Of a DNA stretch of 64,000 nucleotides, positions 14,012 through 20,730 are shown piece by piece. Position numbers and translations under genes: made by a program. Below the pieces are notes generated by a model. That model was not told where the DNA came from. It was given only the letters and a program-made list of their open reading frames with translations, and did not search any database. The stretch is from Pyxidicoccus trucidator (GTDB lineage: Bacteria; Myxococcota; Myxococcia; Myxococcales; Myxococcaceae), in contig NZ_JAAIXZ010000020.1 in NCBI RefSeq assembly GCF_010894435.1, positions 124,001-188,000 on the forward strand, read 5' to 3'. Position 1 is the stretch's first letter. Every line of letters begins with the position of its first letter.

Positions 14012-15079
14012 TCAGATGGCGTAGTCGCCCACGAACACGGCCGCCGTGCGCACATCGGCGCGCACCGAGTCTCCCTCCGTCACACCGAGCGCCTCGAACT
14101 CCGAGCGGGGCACCTCCACGGTGACTTCGTCTCCCGAAGGAAGCCGGAGCAGCACCTTCACGAAGCCGCCCACGGGCTTGAGCCGCTCCACCCGGCCGGT
14201 GGCGGAGTGCCCGTTCAGCGGGGCCTCCGACGACTTCGCCAGCTTGATGTCATGCGGCCGGACGAAGGCCTGCACCGCCTGGCCCTCGCGCGCCGCCGCC
14301 GGGACATGCACGGAGAGCGAGCCCATGGCCACCCGGCCCGAGCGCACCTGACCGCGCAGCACGCTCGCCCCGCCGATGAAGGAGGCGACGAACGGCGACG
14401 CGGGCCGGTTGTAGATGTCCTCCGGCGAGCCCGCCTGCGCCACCCGCCCCTCGCTCATCACCACCACGTGCTGGGAAATCTCCAGTGCCTCCTGCTGGTC
14501 ATGCGTCACCAGCAGCGTGGTGAGGCCCGTGCGCGTGTGGAGCTCATGGAGCCACTCGCGCAGCTCCTCACGCACCCGCGTGTCCAGCGCGCCGAAGGGC
14601 TCATCCAGCAGCAGCACGCGGGGACGGATGGCCAGCGCGCGCGCGAAGGCCACTCGCTGGCGCTGCCCGCCGGAGAGCTGCCCGGGGAAGCGGTTCCCCA
14701 GCTCTTCCAGCTGCACCAGGCGCAACATCTCGTCCACGCGCGCGGCCGTCTCCTCGCGCCGGGAGCCCCGCACCTCCAGCCCGAAGGCGATGTTCTCCCG
14801 CACCGTCATGTGCCGGAACAGGGCGTAGCTCTGGAAGACGACGCCCACGCCCCGCTGCTGCACGGGCATGTTCGTACAGTCCACCCCGTCGATGACGATG
14901 CGACCGGCGTCCGGCACCTCCAGTCCGGCCACCAGCCGCAGCAGCGTGGACTTGCCCGCGCCCGATGGCCCCAGCAGCGAGGTGATGGCACCCGTGGGGG
15001 CCTGGAATGAGACTTCCGAGACGGCCGGAGTCCCCTTCTCCGTGAAGCGCCGGGTGACCTGCTCGACGATGATGCTCAT
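14012..15079 (-). CDS. cysA: Sulfate/thiosulfate ABC transporter ATPase CysA
   Basis: A 355-residue ABC ATPase with Walker A GPSGAGKST at 37-45, Q-loop near VVFQSYALF, signature LSGGQRQR and Walker B LLLDEPFGALD. The C-terminal TOBE-type region contains the VRPHDIKL segment characteristic of CysA. It powers sulfate import through CysT/CysW. The start is set at 15079 because the ATG overlaps the cysW stop by four bases (ATGA), the standard coupling. It is the last gene of the sbp-cysT-cysW-cysA operon. Confidence 0.95.
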   Translation of the reverse strand: MSIIVEQVTRRFTEKGTPAVSEVSFQAPTGAITSLLGPSGAGKSTLLRLVAGLEVPDAGRIVIDGVDCTNMPVQQRGVGVVFQSYALFRHMTVRENIAFGLEVRGSRREETAARVDEMLRLVQLEELGNRFPGQLSGGQRQRVAFARALAIRPRVLLLDEPFGALDTRVREELREWLHELHTRTGLTTLLVTHDQQEALEISQHVVVMSEGRVAQAGSPEDIYNRPASPFVASFIGGASVLRGQVRSGRVAMGSLSVHVPAAAREGQAVQAFVRPHDIKLAKSSEAPLNGHSATGRVERLKPVGGFVKVLLRLPSGDEVTVEVPRSEFEALGVTEGDSVRADVRTAAVFVGDYAI

Positions 15080-15924
15080 GGCGCCACGCTCCTCCACTCC
15101 ACGTATTTCTTGACCACCAGCGTCACCAGCGCGAGCAGCGTCAGCAGCGAGGCCACCGCGAACGCGCCGACGAAGTCGTACTCGTTGTAGAGAATCTCCG
15201 CGTGCAGCGGCAGCGTCGTCGTGACGCCGCGCACGTGCCCGGACACCACGGACACCGCGCCGAACTCGCCCATCGCCCGCGCGTTGCAGAGGATGACGCC
15301 GTAGATGACGCCCCACTTCACCTTGGGCAGGGTGACGCGCCAGAACGTCCGCCACCCGCTCGCGCCCAGCGTCAGGGCCGCCTCCTCCTCGTCGCTGCCC
15401 TGGACCTGCATCACCGGCAGCACCTCGCGCGCCACGAAGGGGAACGTCACGAACACCGTCGCCAGGACGATGCCCGGCACGGCGAAGATGACGCGCAGGT
15501 CATGCTCCACCAGCCACGGCCCCAGCCAGCCCTGCCGCCCGAAGAGCAGCACGAAGATGAGCCCCGCGATGACTGGCGACACGCTGAAGGGCAGGTCGAT
15601 GAGCGTCATCAGCAGCGACCGCCCCCGGAACCGGAACCGGGCGATGAGCCACGCCGCGGCCAACCCGAAGACCAGGTTGAGGGGCACGGAGATGGCCGCT
15701 GCCAGCAGCGTCAGGCGCATGGCCGACAGCGCCTCCGGGTCGCTGATGGCCGCGACATAGGCCGCCCAGCCCTTCTGGAACGCGAAGGTGAAGACGGCCA
15801 CCAGCGGGACGACGAGGAACACGCCCAGGAAGGCCAGCGCCAGTCCGATGAGCGCCCAGCGGATGACCGCCGGCCCGCTGAGGGTCCGCGTGCGCCGCCG
15901 CAAGACGAGAGTCGTGGGATGCAT
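15076..15924 (-). CDS. cysW: Sulfate ABC transporter permease CysW
   Basis: The 282-residue membrane protein has six predicted hydrophobic segments and the CysW-type coupling-helix region with the EEAALTLGASGWRTFWRVTLP motif near residue 180, which docks on CysA. The segment RAMGEFGAVSVVSG is typical of sulfate permeases. It pairs with CysT to form the channel. It overlaps cysA by four bases and starts six bases after cysT ends, so the three are one transcription unit. Confidence 0.94.
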   Translation of the reverse strand: MHPTTLVLRRRTRTLSGPAVIRWALIGLALAFLGVFLVVPLVAVFTFAFQKGWAAYVAAISDPEALSAMRLTLLAAAISVPLNLVFGLAAAWLIARFRFRGRSLLMTLIDLPFSVSPVIAGLIFVLLFGRQGWLGPWLVEHDLRVIFAVPGIVLATVFVTFPFVAREVLPVMQVQGSDEEEAALTLGASGWRTFWRVTLPKVKWGVIYGVILCNARAMGEFGAVSVVSGHVRGVTTTLPLHAEILYNEYDFVGAFAVASLLTLLALVTLVVKKYVEWRSVAP

Positions 15925-15930
15925 GGCGCC

Positions 15931-16776
15931 TCAGCTCCCCGTCCGGGCTTCGAGCCGGCGGTGGCTCCAGCGATGGAGCAGGTTGACGGCCAGCAGCAGC
16001 GAGAAGGACGCCATCAGCATGACGATGGCGATGGCTGTCGCGCCCGCGTAGTCGTACTGCTCCAGCTTGGTGATGATGAGCAGCGGGACGATTTCGGTCC
16101 GCAGCGGCATGTTGCCGGAGATGAAGACGACGGAGCCGTACTCCCCCAGCGCCCGGGCGAACGCCAGGGTGAAGCCGCTGAGCAGCGCGGGCAGGATGCT
16201 CGGGAAGAGCACCCGGGAGAACGTCTGCCACGGCGTGGCGCCCAGCGTCGCCGCGGCCTCCTCCACGTCCACGTCGATGTCCTCCAGCACCGGTTGCACC
16301 GTGCGCACCACGAAGGGCAGCCCGATGAAGGTGAGCGCCACCGCCACGCCCACGGAGGTGTAGGCCACCTTCAGGCCCATCGCCTCCAGGTACTGGCCAT
16401 ACCAGCCATTGGCGGAGAACAGCGTCGTCAGCGTCAGCCCCGCCACCGCCGTGGGCAGCGCGAAGGGCAGGTCCACCAGCGCCTCCACCAAATCCCTGCC
16501 GGGGAAGCGGTAGCGCACCAGCACCCAGGCCACCAGCAGCCCGAAGACGACGTTGGCCAGGGCCGCGGCGAGCGAGGCCCCGAAGGTGAGCTGGTAGGCG
16601 GCGAGCGCGCGCGGCGCCGTCACCGTCTCCCAGAACTGCGCCCAGGTGAGAGTGAACGTCTTGAGGAAGAGGCTGGACAGCGGAATGAGGACGATGAGCC
16701 CCAGGTAGAACCAGCTGAAGCCCAGCGACAGCCTGAAGCCCGGGAGGACGCGGCGGCGGCGAGAGGACACGGACAT
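15931..16776 (-). CDS. cysT: Sulfate ABC transporter permease CysT (CysU)
   Basis: A 281-residue permease with six hydrophobic segments, the EEAAATLGATPWQTFSRVLFP coupling motif and the ARALGEYGSVVFISGN segment that marks CysT. The start at 16776 (MSVSSRRRRVLPGF) is chosen over an in-frame ATG 20 codons upstream because the longer form would begin inside the sbp gene and add a non-conserved, polar N-terminus. It lies 13 bases after sbp. Confidence 0.94.
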   Translation of the reverse strand: MSVSSRRRRVLPGFRLSLGFSWFYLGLIVLIPLSSLFLKTFTLTWAQFWETVTAPRALAAYQLTFGASLAAALANVVFGLLVAWVLVRYRFPGRDLVEALVDLPFALPTAVAGLTLTTLFSANGWYGQYLEAMGLKVAYTSVGVAVALTFIGLPFVVRTVQPVLEDIDVDVEEAAATLGATPWQTFSRVLFPSILPALLSGFTLAFARALGEYGSVVFISGNMPLRTEIVPLLIITKLEQYDYAGATAIAIVMLMASFSLLLAVNLLHRWSHRRLEARTGS

Positions 16777-16789
16777 GACGCGGCGGCCT

Positions 16790-17845
16790 TCAGCGGGCCT
16801 GCGGGGCGTAGATGCGGTCGAACACGCCCCCGTCATCGAAGTGCGCGGCCTGGGCCTTCTTCCAGCCGCCGAAGACGTCAGCGATGGTGAAGAGGCTCAC
16901 GTTGGGGAACCGCGCCGCGTGCTTCGCGGCCACGGCCTGGGAGCGGGGGCGGTAGTAGTGCTTCGCCGCCAGTTCCTGGCCCTCGTCCGAGTAGAGATAC
17001 TGGAGGTACGCCTCCGCGGCGGCGCGGGTGCCCCGCTTGTCCACGTTCTTGTCCACCACGGTGACAGGCGGCTCGGCGAGGATGCTCACCGACGGGACGA
17101 CAATCTCGAACTTGTCCTTGCCCACCTCCTGCGTGAGCAGGAAGGCCTCGTTCTCCCAGGCGATGAGCACGTCCCCCAGGCCGCGCTCGGCGAAGGTGGT
17201 GGTGGAGCCGCGTGCCCCGGAGTCCAGCACGGGGACGTTGCGGAAGAGCTTCTCCACGAAGGCCTGGGCAGTGGCCTCACCGCCGCCCTGCTTGCGGAGC
17301 GCGTAGCCCCACGCGGCCAGGTAGTTCCAACGCGCGCCGCCGGACGTCTTGGGGTTGGGGGTGATGACGGAGACGCCCTCCTTGACGAGGTCCTCCCAGT
17401 CCTTGATGCCCTTGGGGTTGCCCTTGCGCACCACGAAGACGATGGTGGACGTGTACGGCGCGCTGTTGTCCGGCAGCCGCTTCTGCCAGTCCGCGGGGAT
17501 GAGCTGCCCCTTGTCGTGGAGCATGTCCACGTCGTACGCGAGCGCCAGCGTGACGACGTCCGCCTCCAGCCCGTCGATGACGGCCCGCGCCTGCTTGCCG
17601 GAGCCACCGTGGGACTGCTTGATGGTGACCTTCTTGCCGCTCTTCGCCTCCCAGTGCTTCGCGAAGGCGGCGTTGAAGTCCGTGTACAGCTCACGCGTGG
17701 GGTCGTAGGAGACGTTGAGCAGGGTGACGCTGCCGCCCTCCGAGGACGCGGCGGCATCACCGCCCGACCTGGAGCAGCCGGCGAGGCTCACCAACAGGAG
17801 CAGGGCAACCCAGGGTCTGGGACGCGGCGAGAAGTGACCTTCCAT
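16790..17845 (-). CDS. sbp: Periplasmic sulfate-binding lipoprotein Sbp
   Basis: The 351-residue protein carries a lipoprotein signal ending SLAGC (Cys 24) and the sulfate-binding fold of the Sbp/CysP family: [14 protein letters not shown] at the N-terminus, the [25 protein letters not shown] segment, and [11 protein letters not shown] in the second lobe. It delivers sulfate or thiosulfate to CysTW. It is the first gene of the operon, with GAGG upstream of the ATG, and is preceded by a leader containing a Cys-rich peptide and a terminator hairpin (17910-18038), so its expression is probably set by cysteine supply. Confidence 0.95.
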
Positions 17846-17909: not shown

Positions 17910-17940
17910 AAAGCCCACTCCCTCGCGGGCAGTGGGCTTT
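17910..17940 (-). terminator. Terminator/attenuator hairpin in the sbp leader
   Basis: A perfect 10-pair stem, AAAGCCCACT with AGTGGGCTTT, encloses an 11-base loop between the leader peptide and sbp. On the minus strand it is followed by CGAGTTTCT, a weak T tract. The 5' arm can instead pair with GGTGGGC inside the leader peptide gene (17991-17985), which would block the terminator. The stem is symmetric in its A/T ends and so could also act on the plus strand. Confidence 0.75.
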
Positions 17941-17963
17941 TCAGACCGGGTCGACCAGGGCTC

Positions 17964-18038
17964 TCAGGCCACTGGTGGACAGGCGCCCACCGCAGGTGCG
18001 TGACAGCAGCAACAAGCGGTGGAGAGCGGGGTCGACAT
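17964..18038 (-). CDS. Cysteine-rich leader peptide of the sulfate importer operon
   Basis: A 24-codon frame, [12 protein letters not shown] followed by [12 protein letters not shown] and TGA, lies on the sbp strand 118 bases upstream of sbp. Codons 9-12 are four consecutive Cys codons (TGT TGC TGC TGT), and codon 20 is a fifth. No ribosome site precedes it, but a TTGACA at 18077-18072 and a CATCGT 17 bases further place the predicted transcript start only a few bases before the ATG, so it may be translated leaderless. Ribosome stalling at the Cys run when cysteinyl-tRNA is scarce would free GGTGGGC to pair with the terminator 5' arm. Polycysteine leader peptides acting this way are known from mycobacteria; the assignment here is inference. 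Confidence 0.7.
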
Positions 18039-18048
18039 GAACGAAGCC

Positions 18049-18077
18049 ACGATGCCCGCGGCCGGGGGCGTTGTCAA
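18049..18077 (-). promoter_or_regulatory. Predicted promoter of the Cys leader and sbp operon
   Basis: On the minus strand there is a perfect -35 box TTGACA (18077-18072), then 17 bases, then CATCGT (18054-18049), which keeps the key A2 and T6 of a -10 box. The predicted start falls about 3-5 bases before the leader ATG at 18038. Confidence 0.45.
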
Positions 18078-18109
18078 CGCGGCGCTCCATCCGAAGTCGT
18101 GAAATCGAG

Positions 18110-18115
18110 TATAAT
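18110..18115 (+). promoter_or_regulatory. Predicted -10 box for the LamG-protein gene
   Basis: A perfect TATAAT lies 23 bases upstream of the ATG at 18139, in otherwise GC-rich DNA, followed by a GAAGGAG ribosome site at 18127-18133. No good -35 box is seen at the usual spacing. The site is about 30 bases from the divergent sbp leader promoter. Confidence 0.5.
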
Positions 18116-18138
18116 CAGATTTTCACGAAGGAGCCCTC

Positions 18139-20730
18139 ATGCCCCCGCGCCCCTGTCGTCCGCTGGCCCTGCTCGCAGCGTCGCTGCTCGCCCTCGCCTT
18201 CGCGCCCCACGAGTCCGTCGCCGCCGAGCGGCCCTCGCTTGTGAACACCCGCATCCGCACGCCCTTCAACGCCAACGGCCACTCGTCCACGATTGATGGG
18301 CGGGTCTTCATCGGGAACATCCGGGAGGACCACGCCACCACGACGACCACCTGGCACGCGCGGGTGTTCCGCCCCGAGGCAGTGACGTACGACGCCCAGG
18401 GCCGGCCCTCCTTCTCCGGGGTCTTCTCCTCCGGGCGCACCGTCGACGTGAGGAACGGCGAGAATGCGCTGGCCTTCTGCTTCACCAACCCGGCTCAGCC
18501 GTACACGCTCTCCGGCGGGACCGCGGTGTATCAGCCATATCTCTTCGACTCGCAGATGTACGGCGGCCCGCCGAACCGGTTCCGCCGCCGCCCGGTGGAC
18601 CTCCGCGTCTCGCTGCCCTTCACGGCGCAGGCGGACATCTCGTCGTTCACCACCGGCAACCTGGAGTTCCTCACCACCGTCACGGGAGGAGAGCTTCGCG
18701 GCATCGAGCCGACGATGACCTCCGACGGACGGCTCCTCATCTACCAGGGCGGCCCGTCCAACAACGGGGTCATCGACCACCTGATGTACTCGTACAACCC
18801 CACGCCCTGCGCGGCGTCGGGCTGGAGCAACCCGCGTCCGCTGTCGATGATGGTCAATGACCCGAACCCGGGCGTGAAGCGCTACCCGCTCGCGTGGCAG
18901 CCGCTGAAGTCCGCCCTCGGGGAGCCCTTCGGCACCACCACCACGGGCGCGCTCATCCGCGGCGCCTATGTCTGGGTGGACCACGAGGGACGCAACGTCC
19001 TCTACACCGCTGTCGTCTACACCGACGGCGCGCGCCGCGAGGCCGTCAGCCTGGTGGGCGCGGACACGAACTGGACGGCGTATCACGTCGACGGAAGCAT
19101 CAACACGGACCGCAGCGACATCGCCCACCTCTTCTACTCGGGCCCCATGTGGAACTTCGAGCAGGAGCGCAGCCCCGCGCAGAACTTCCCGCCGGGCGCC
19201 AGCAACGAGGCGAAGTACCTGCCCGTCACCAAGACGCATGACGTGCTCGCCCTCTTCGGCAGCAACACGTCGGACTACAACGAAATCGACGTCGGGGACC
19301 TGACCCATCCCTTCCACGTGCTCTTCCTGCCCATGAACGAGCTGGTCACCCGGGCAGGAGCGTATGACCTGACGCGCACGCCGGACCTGGCGGGCCGCTT
19401 CTACACGGGCACGCTCACCGGCACCGCGCAGATTTCCCCCGGCAACGCCGTGACACAGCCGGCGTCGGGCTCGCCGTGGGAGCCGCAGGGCAAGGGCAAG
19501 GCGCTGGTCCTCCCGGGCGGTGGCGCCCTCACGGTGAACCTCACCGACGCCAACAGCACCGTGCCTGGCGTGGGCGCCTTCGCCCGTGGCTTCACCGTGC
19601 AGCTCGCCATCAAGCCCGACGCGAACATCAACACCGGCTGCACCGGGAACCCGTATCGCTACCTGCTGGCGAAGTCGGGCGGCCTGGACCTCATCTACGA
19701 GGCGGACAACACGGTGCAGATGTCCTTCGTGCTCAACGGCCAGCGCGTCCGCATGGGGCGCAGCCCCGCCCTGCCCGTGGGCGCCTGGAGCCACGTTGCC
19801 TATACGTGGGACGGTGTCACCGGGCAGTTCAACGAGTACCTCAACGGCGTGTCCACGGGGCGGGCCCTGCCCGTCGTCACCGGCTCCTTCCGGCTGGGCA
19901 CGGGCGCACTGTCCATCGGCGCGGGCAATGTGATGAACACGCAGGCCTGCCCGGCCACGGGTGAGGGCTCGTTCCGGGGCGCCATCGACGAGGTCCGCTT
20001 CTTCTCCCACGCGCGCTCCAACCGGAGCGTCTGCATGACGACGCACGGCGCGGACTGTAAGGACGCGGCCATCCAGGGGACTCCGTCCGCCGGTCAGTTC
20101 GGGATGAGCCAGCAGCAGCCCACGTGCAACGGCTACGCGGCGCTGGGCACGCAGGCGTGCGCGTCCTCCATGCACCGGGTCTGCGCGCAGCGCGGGGCGC
20201 ATGACGCGCTGGCCACCAGCACCAACGTGTACGAGACGATTCAGCAGCTCATCGGCAACCGTCCGCCCATCTCGCTCATGGGCGTGCCGGCCGCTGCCAC
20301 CGCCACCGACGTGAGCGTGGCGTGCGCGCCCATCCAGCACCAGAGCCTCGCCGTCACCTTCGAGGAGCTGGCGCGCAAGCACGCGGGATGCGCGGATGAC
20401 CGGGTGGCGCAGAGCCTGGACTGCGGCGCCGCCGTGCACCGCTGGTGCAACAGCCTGGGGTGGACGACGGGCCTGCTCTTCGAGGTGACGACGCGGCCGT
20501 GGGTGGGCTGCTTCAACTCGGGCCTCATCCAGGACGTGCCCAAGGACCAGCTCGGGCCTGCCTCCAACGCGGGCAGCTTCACCTCCGCTGACGGACGGCT
20601 GGAGGTCAGCCGGTGGTGCCAGGCGCGCGGCTACGGCGCCGGTGTCATCCAGGAACTGGGCGCGGGGACGTTCGCGAATGTCCACTGCTTCCAGCCGGCG
20701 ATGACGGTGCCCTGGAAGTTCACGCCGTAG
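18139..20730 (+). CDS. Secreted LamG-like (concanavalin-fold) protein with Cys-rich C-terminal repeats
   Basis: The 863-residue protein has a signal peptide cut near residue 29 (SVAA). About 430 residues of beta-rich sequence without a recognised domain follow. Residues about 450-640 form a LamG/concanavalin-like jellyroll (VGAWSHVAYTWDGVTGQFNEYLNG and GAIDEVRFFSHARS are hallmark strands). After residue 660 come three related Cys-rich units sharing the pattern R-x-C-x-x-x-G, then an acidic stretch and a Cys. The jellyroll suggests glycan or surface binding; no catalytic motif was found. It is monocistronic, with its own TATAAT and ribosome site, and ends in a hairpin. Confidence 0.85.
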   Translation: MPPRPCRPLALLAASLLALAFAPHESVAAERPSLVNTRIRTPFNANGHSSTIDGRVFIGNIREDHATTTTTWHARVFRPEAVTYDAQGRPSFSGVFSSGRTVDVRNGENALAFCFTNPAQPYTLSGGTAVYQPYLFDSQMYGGPPNRFRRRPVDLRVSLPFTAQADISSFTTGNLEFLTTVTGGELRGIEPTMTSDGRLLIYQGGPSNNGVIDHLMYSYNPTPCAASGWSNPRPLSMMVNDPNPGVKRYPLAWQPLKSALGEPFGTTTTGALIRGAYVWVDHEGRNVLYTAVVYTDGARREAVSLVGADTNWTAYHVDGSINTDRSDIAHLFYSGPMWNFEQERSPAQNFPPGASNEAKYLPVTKTHDVLALFGSNTSDYNEIDVGDLTHPFHVLFLPMNELVTRAGAYDLTRTPDLAGRFYTGTLTGTAQISPGNAVTQPASGSPWEPQGKGKALVLPGGGALTVNLTDANSTVPGVGAFARGFTVQLAIKPDANINTGCTGNPYRYLLAKSGGLDLIYEADNTVQMSFVLNGQRVRMGRSPALPVGAWSHVAYTWDGVTGQFNEYLNGVSTGRALPVVTGSFRLGTGALSIGAGNVMNTQACPATGEGSFRGAIDEVRFFSHARSNRSVCMTTHGADCKDAAIQGTPSAGQFGMSQQQPTCNGYAALGTQACASSMHRVCAQRGAHDALATSTNVYETIQQLIGNRPPISLMGVPAAATATDVSVACAPIQHQSLAVTFEELARKHAGCADDRVAQSLDCGAAVHRWCNSLGWTTGLLFEVTTRPWVGCFNSGLIQDVPKDQLGPASNAGSFTSADGRLEVSRWCQARGYGAGVIQELGAGTFANVHCFQPAMTVPWKFTP

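Follow-up and report, generated by a model that had tools for sequence, protein, structure and literature searches.

A conserved polycysteine leader before the sulfate import operon of Pyxidicoccus trucidator is a predicted cysteine-responsive transcription attenuator with a methionine-coded paralogue

We propose that the sulfate import operon of Pyxidicoccus trucidator is preceded by a leader that very probably acts as a ribosome-mediated, cysteine-responsive transcription attenuator, a reading drawn from sequence comparison and folding models. On our best reading, this leader belongs to a family of attenuators, new to myxobacteria, in which the regulatory codons specify one of two amino acids, Cys or Met. 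The locus lies in a 64,000-nt stretch of contig NZ_JAAIXZ010000020.1 (positions 124,001 to 188,000, assembly GCF_010894435.1), which we call the window and to which all unlabelled coordinates refer. The sequence and its comparison with relatives establish a conserved open reading frame (ORF), its Cys codons, the spacing of its promoter, two mutually exclusive folds and a linkage to sulfate uptake. The features of the locus are as follows.

18049..18077, minus strand: promoter, TTGACA at 18077-18072, a 17-nt spacer and CATCGT at 18054-18049 (sequence and homologues)
17964..18038, minus strand: leader peptide ORF of 24 codons, ATG at 18038, TGA at 17966-17964 (ORF and homologues)
18003..18014, minus strand: four Cys codons, TGT TGC TGC TGT, the predicted regulatory codons (conserved across genera)
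17985..17993, minus strand: arm b, GCGGTGGGC, with the core GGTGGGC at 17991-17985, 5' half of the putative antiterminator (conservation of the core)
17974..17980, minus strand: arm c, GTCCACC, partner of b (7 bp, 4-nt loop) or of d (pairing statistics)
17951..17979, minus strand: hairpin c:d across the stop codon, TCCACCAGTGG at 17979-17969 with CCCTGGTCGA at 17960-17951 (covariation)
17910..17940, minus strand: putative terminator hairpin e:f, e GCCCACT at 17937-17931, GCGA tetraloop, f AGTGGGC at 17919-17913 (pairing and compensatory exchanges)
16790..17845, minus strand: sbp, sulfate ABC transporter substrate-binding protein, putatively regulated (NCBIfam TIGR00971, E 2.4e-153)
15931..16836, minus strand: cysT, sulfate permease, true start probably near 16776 (TIGR02139, E 6.9e-123)
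15076..15924, minus strand: cysW, sulfate permease (TIGR02140, E 9.7e-123)
14012..15079, minus strand: cysA-like sulfate ATPase, inferred start at 15079 (TIGR00968, E 2.9e-102, just below cut-off)

A check of the minus strand placed the promoter, ORF, Cys codons, GGTGGGC, CCACC and terminator stem where a first-pass annotation of the same DNA had put them. The leader ORF starts in the manner of leaderless genes, without a Shine-Dalgarno sequence. TTGACA is kept in all 28 homologues with a -35/-10 spacing of 17-18 nt, and the -10 box lies 10-12 nt from the ATG in 27 of the 28 leaders (in the other, L029, an extra ATG misled the script). This fixed distance fits a start that is leaderless or nearly so, and is consistent with the earlier proposal that the promoter would start the transcript only a few bases before the ATG. 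Of simulated windows, 7.5% contained a short ORF with an unbroken run of four Cys codons, and the 186-nt fold has a z of -2.61. The pattern of three complementary arms matched the P. trucidator genome 54 times compared to 39 for a reversed-pattern control, with only two true elements among the matches; being near chance, it was dropped as a standalone detector. Given the frequency of such ORFs in simulation and of the arm pattern in the genome, the single sequence is only suggestive, and conservation decides.

The arms follow one another 5' to 3' as b, c (17980-17974), d (17960-17951), e and f, and can form two folds: fold T consists of b:c and e:f, and in fold AT b:e encloses c:d. Since arm e is common to b:e and e:f, the folds are mutually exclusive. 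The complementarity between GGTGGGC and GCCCACT reported at first pass is present, and b:e reaches 9 bp in P. trucidator (GCGGTGGGC:GCCCACTGC). The competing pairing of GGTGG with CCACC likewise exists, but its extent had been understated at 5 bp; it comprises 7 bp with a 4-nt loop, GGTGGGC-GCCT-GTCCACC at 17991-17974. Among homologues, 95% of b:c cells are paired, and 6.64 of the 7 pairs form at a loop of 4 nt compared to 2.0-4.6 at other loop lengths. The c:d hairpin is paired in 96% of cells, its covariation score exceeds all 500 shuffles, and one of its pair positions occurs as three pair types (A-U/C-G/G-C exchange). A search for compensatory changes found them in the terminator, where 98.5% of e:f cells are paired and exchanges of U-A/C-G (16/9 sequences) and C-G/U-A (14/8 sequences) occur. 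Pairing of b:e is kept in 96% of cells in alignment A1; in the broader alignment A2, every letter-bearing cell is paired (100%). Arm b hardly varies and offers little direct covariation for b:e: A1 and A2 contain a single double change each (C-G to U-A in one sequence of A2), and locus L203 is fully re-paired, with b, e and f altered jointly to GGCGGGC/GCCCGCC/GGCGGGC. With the exception of L203 (core GGCGGGC), GGTGGG is present in every Cys- and Met-class leader gathered by our models. Of the Cys leaders, 37 read it in frame 2 and five in frame 1, and in the Met class 16 leaders read it in frame 0; its retention across different reading frames argues that the constraint acts on the RNA and not on the protein.

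This conservation of pairings bears on Rho-dependent termination, in which translation of the leader would cover or expose a rut site and the hairpin would merely mark the 3' end. Such a mechanism has no need for b:e, b:c, c:d or e:f, yet all four are conserved, and we consider it very unlikely even though the U-tract behind the hairpin is weak and Rho has been suggested to act at the Cys leaders of Actinobacteria (PMC1262725). A candidate protector segment, CCACCGC, lies 5' of the Cys codons and looked promising on the window sequence, but it was rejected: it is 69% paired in the alignment, shows no covariation and does no better than shuffled sequences. The Cys codons themselves are able to pair with b, in pairs that are invariant across the alignment. 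No Rfam family gave a match at its gathering threshold within the window.

The putative terminator has a 10-bp stem, a bulge, three further pairs and a GNRA loop (GCGA). The stem is strong, and the weak U-tract of its tail, TTTCGAGTTTC, explains why e:f was not listed by a simple terminator scan of the window. The strict terminator stem described in the first-pass annotation thus stands as a strong and conserved stem, but not as a terminator with a good U-tract. In relatives, a GC hairpin followed by the tail GGGCTTCGTCGTTTCTGG is found repeatedly just 3' of the stop codons of ordinary ORFs (L202, L204, L205, L206), and this combination of hairpin and tail is likely a common form of myxobacterial terminator that lacks a true U-run and is overlooked by standard scans. 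The weak U-tract also leaves room for translational attenuation, in which the hairpin is no terminator and a ribosome stalled on Cys exposes the first gene's ribosome-binding site; the cysteine-responsive leaders of Mycobacterium smegmatis have been called translation attenuation (PMC13236596, PMC9031893), and Actinobacterial Cys leaders come without terminators (PMC1262725). We judge this unlikely for the myxobacterial leader. The hairpin is its best-conserved part while the gene behind it varies (sbp, a porin gene, a 31-aa ORF, DUF4395, metX/metY), the distance from hairpin to start codon ranges from ~40 to 160 nt, making conserved masking of a Shine-Dalgarno sequence unlikely, and the occurrence of the same tail behind ordinary ORFs is terminator-like.

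The behavior of the attenuator as the ribosome advances was modeled by folding transcripts that end before f with the ribosome footprint masked, considering equilibrium folding only. When the A site held the first of the Cys codons, the median probability of b:e in 28 close homologues was 1.00; it was 0.00 with the mask over codons 14-20 and 0.18 with the mask at the stop codon. In P. trucidator, the probability was 0.99 at each of the first three Cys codons, 0.56 at the fourth, 0.19 at the stop codon and 0.03 without a ribosome. The prediction without a ribosome is therefore termination in P. trucidator (0.03); for the M. xanthus clade, where the value is about 1, it is read-through. In pre-f transcripts of seven of the eight species tested, b:e is 3-8 kcal/mol more favorable than b:c; in P. 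trucidator the two are about equal. Once f has been made, folding energies favor e:f, as is typical of attenuators. The mutual exclusion and the direction of switching envisaged at first pass, with a stall at Cys codons giving the antiterminator and a ribosome further on giving the terminator, are thus borne out by ribosome-masked folding, with three deviating cases: the diverged leaders L103, L105 and L106 of genus g8 show no clear Cys-stall antiterminator in this model.

Together these elements suggest the following mechanism. Transcription would start at the leader ATG or only a few bases away from it. When cysteinyl-tRNA is ample, the ribosome would clear the Cys codons and cover b while the polymerase makes e and f; the e:f terminator would then fold and keep sbp-cysTWA from being transcribed. 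Under cysteine shortage, a stall on the Cys codons would leave b (GGTGGGC) free to pair with e, with c:d inside; with b:e formed there would be no terminator, and sulfate import would be expressed. The b:c pairing would hold b in the non-stalled state, and one speculation is that this hairpin makes the polymerase pause and thereby synchronizes it with the ribosome. We infer both the end of transcription at e:f and its control by cysteine.

We sought sbp in 80 relatives, and built a covariance model from 25 leaders. The model matched a Cys leader in all 27 genomes of the genus to which P. trucidator belongs (Myxococcus/Pyxidicoccus, including M. xanthus), in four more genera of the family (g8, g12, g16 and g18, the last being Citreicoccus; genus names come from a pattern scan) and, as a diverged homologue, in a genome of another family (G074). 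Besides the peptide, these leaders of the family retain the promoter, the terminator hairpin and GGTGGGC. Every Myxococcus/Pyxidicoccus genome has a run of three or four Cys, as do three further genera; the fourth genus and the other family have two to four interspersed Cys. The reading frame is preserved. Examples of the peptide are MTRSTHQTCCCCPASAVGVRPPVA (M. xanthus AM003 type, L031), MRTPTTPLASCCCQAPWVGVCPPVA (g18), MRATSTQSCCCWDLWVGACAPSA (g16), MSTPSRQEVCCCCRSRRWALVRRQRGG (g12), MPTLRPPHMKVCCRRSTGVGARPPEA and MPTSPRHRMFCRCLWQEGWVLARRKPEG (g8), and MHLPICACRCRCRPVGEGLPAA (the other family). The codons are TGC TGT TGC TGT in g12 compared to TGT TGC TGC TGT in Myxococcus/Pyxidicoccus, and these synonymous differences indicate that it is the amino acid that is retained. 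Loss of the Cys run in relatives would have told against the attenuator; instead, it is kept across genera. In some relatives, the run is reduced to CC, CRC, CxCRC or CRCRC while the RNA arms are retained.

A Cys leader is likewise absent from the six genomes without sbp that we checked, five of them from g41 and the sixth G084. In some species of three genera (G037, G040, G041), sbp is present and no leader was detected; in G041 and G040 it lies 3' of a cysI-like gene (L065, L066) with no Cys leader within ~15 kb, and sbp of this type is likely under another control. Searching the class with model R2 added nothing beyond the order. Pattern-scan matches outside the myxobacteria (Pseudomonas, Lysobacter and others) proved on inspection to be repeats, coding sequence or chance, and eight weak model matches (L125, L126, L128, L134, L202, L204-L206) contained no Cys or Met leader when inspected. 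Record BNCN01000006.1, titled Comamonas sp. KCTC 72670, carries a Cys leader (L153) that groups with Myxococcus, and the Comamonas label looks wrong.

The Cys leader mostly lies either directly before sbp(-cysTWA) or before an OprP-like porin gene followed by sbp. Within Myxococcus/Pyxidicoccus, one group has the leader directly 5' of sbp; in other species the two are ~2 kb apart, with an OprP-type porin gene (PF07396) between them that ends just 5' of sbp. This porin gene stands between leader and sbp in many Myxococcus species and not in P. trucidator. Species of g8 carry a lone OprP-like porin gene with a separate, second Cys leader (L108, L109, L114). In g16 (L100-L102), what follows the Cys leader and its terminator hairpin is a conserved 31-aa membrane ORF, MRRGI[IF]SEILRDFIFQTLLIGLLLWALGA[AV]R, which has no Pfam match, and sbp is found elsewhere in the genome. 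A DUF4395 gene lies 3' of the Cys leader in G035 (L124/L208) and in G067 (L203/L210), where L203, from another family, has the GGCGGGC variant. These arrangements hint at a role for DUF4395 in sulfur metabolism; most DUF4395 homologues had no leader that we could find. On the other side of the window's leader, an inverted repeat at 18097-18128, TCGTGAAA-N16-TTTCACGA, surrounds TATAAT (18110-18115, plus strand) before a divergent gene at 18139, and has the appearance of an operator.

A homologous element with Met codons is present in the P. trucidator genome itself (L115, G000:C2:306556-306693, minus strand). Its leader reads MTNFRSMCRMSKPGGLQPASVG and precedes metX (a TIGR01392/NF001209 homologue, below the curated cut-off). 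The Met-class homologues of L115 (L110, L116-L123, L127, L129-L133, L207) have peptides such as MTHFCSMCRMSMPGGLQPASVG, MFVTSAMCMCSMPVPGGPLPAAVG and MISVARNSRRMLMPSGGRPPATG, lie before metX or metY, and keep Met codons rather than Cys codons in front of the same RNA arms; GGTGGGC, GCCCACC and a GNRA-capped terminator are common to both classes. The Met form is found in nearly all Myxococcaceae genera that have the Cys form, and also in g41, which is without the Cys form. The c:d hairpin, this methionine paralogue and the porin link were all absent from the first-pass annotation.

The model that revealed a second element in each genome was built from Cys leaders and one Met-type sequence, L110, which the pure Cys model R1 had already matched (E 4e-5). 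Conversely, a model of the Met class only matched 27/27 genomes of Myxococcus/Pyxidicoccus, 6/6 of g8, all 16 of g41 and others, and it matched Cys leaders too, including that of the window (E 3e-7). The simplest interpretation of this reciprocal detection is that Cys and Met leaders are one family with re-coded peptides. It also counts against the view that there is no regulation here, only a conserved short protein, an ordinary terminator and chance complementarity. The near-chance frequency of the three-arm pattern in the genome favors that view; with GGTGGG kept across reading frames and covariation in e:f and c:d as well, we find it barely credible, and the leader is real and most likely functional.

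Adjacent cysteines can bind metals or become oxidized, which counts in favor of yet another possibility, that the CCCC peptide is a sensor of metal, redox or thiol stress that acts as an arrest peptide, and not a reporter of Cys-tRNA supply. Against this, the run degenerates while the RNA arms persist, the paralogue carries Met codons before Met genes, and the downstream genes are for sulfate uptake and not stress response; we regard it as highly improbable. The position of the Met-type paralogue before metX/metY argues instead for sensing of amino-acid supply, and the Met-codon copy would control these genes in the same way as the attenuator before sbp. In the folding model, Met leaders without a ribosome default to read-through (median 1.00). 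If our reading is correct, this default would make sense, since Met starvation blocks initiation too, and to our knowledge the Met form would be the first classical Met-codon attenuator. We lean towards the view that one ancestral myxobacterial attenuator was duplicated and re-coded between Cys and Met, and may be used elsewhere (DUF4395, the 31-aa membrane protein).

Polycysteine leaderless short ORFs in mycobacteria were reportedly described by Canestrari et al. in 2020. Seliverstov et al. 2005 (PMC1262725) had predicted terminator-free Cys leaders ahead of the cys operons of Mycobacterium and others, and the polycysteine leaders of M. smegmatis have been described as translation attenuation (PMC13236596, PMC9031893). 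Like the myxobacterial leader, the mycobacterial ORFs are short, contain a Cys run, lie before sulfur-assimilation genes, and are proposed to respond to cysteine; they are leaderless or nearly so, as the myxobacterial leader may be. The mycobacterial leaders have no conserved terminator and are described as translational regulators, however, whereas the myxobacterial leader has a conserved terminator hairpin and antiterminator pairing. We found no sequence relation between the two, and the myxobacterial leader is further set apart by its lineage, Myxococcota, and by its Met-coded paralogue.

Classical transcription attenuators control the trp, his, leu, thr and ilv operons of enterobacteria. 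With these, the myxobacterial leader shares a peptide with regulatory codons, a mutually exclusive antiterminator and putative terminator, and the predicted direction of control. As in the classical case, the downstream genes supply the amino acid of the regulatory codons (sbp-cysTWA for the Cys form, metX/metY for the Met form). Unlike the classical attenuators, it pairs cysteine codons with uptake of inorganic sulfate, has a probably near-leaderless start and has a weak U-tract; the competitor of b also lies downstream (b:c), the upstream protector segment being unsupported. SAM, SAH and T-box riboregulators (Rfam) likewise exert cis-acting RNA control over Cys and Met genes, but sensing by the myxobacterial leader is predicted to require translation of the leader peptide, and the window has no Rfam match. 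The first-pass annotation knew of no such leader in myxobacteria, and in the open-access literature we too found no report of a myxobacterial leader-peptide attenuator in Cys or Met form, or of any Met-codon attenuator.

If our interpretation is correct, control by cysteine-coded leaders arose or persists far from the Actinobacteria, and the myxobacterial version works at transcription, with a complete terminator and antiterminator. A single RNA framework re-coded between Cys and Met would be a natural experiment on how the specificity of an attenuator changes. Because M. xanthus carries both elements, the mechanism is open to direct test in a model organism, and the leader offers a reporter of sulfur starvation for the myxobacterial lineage.
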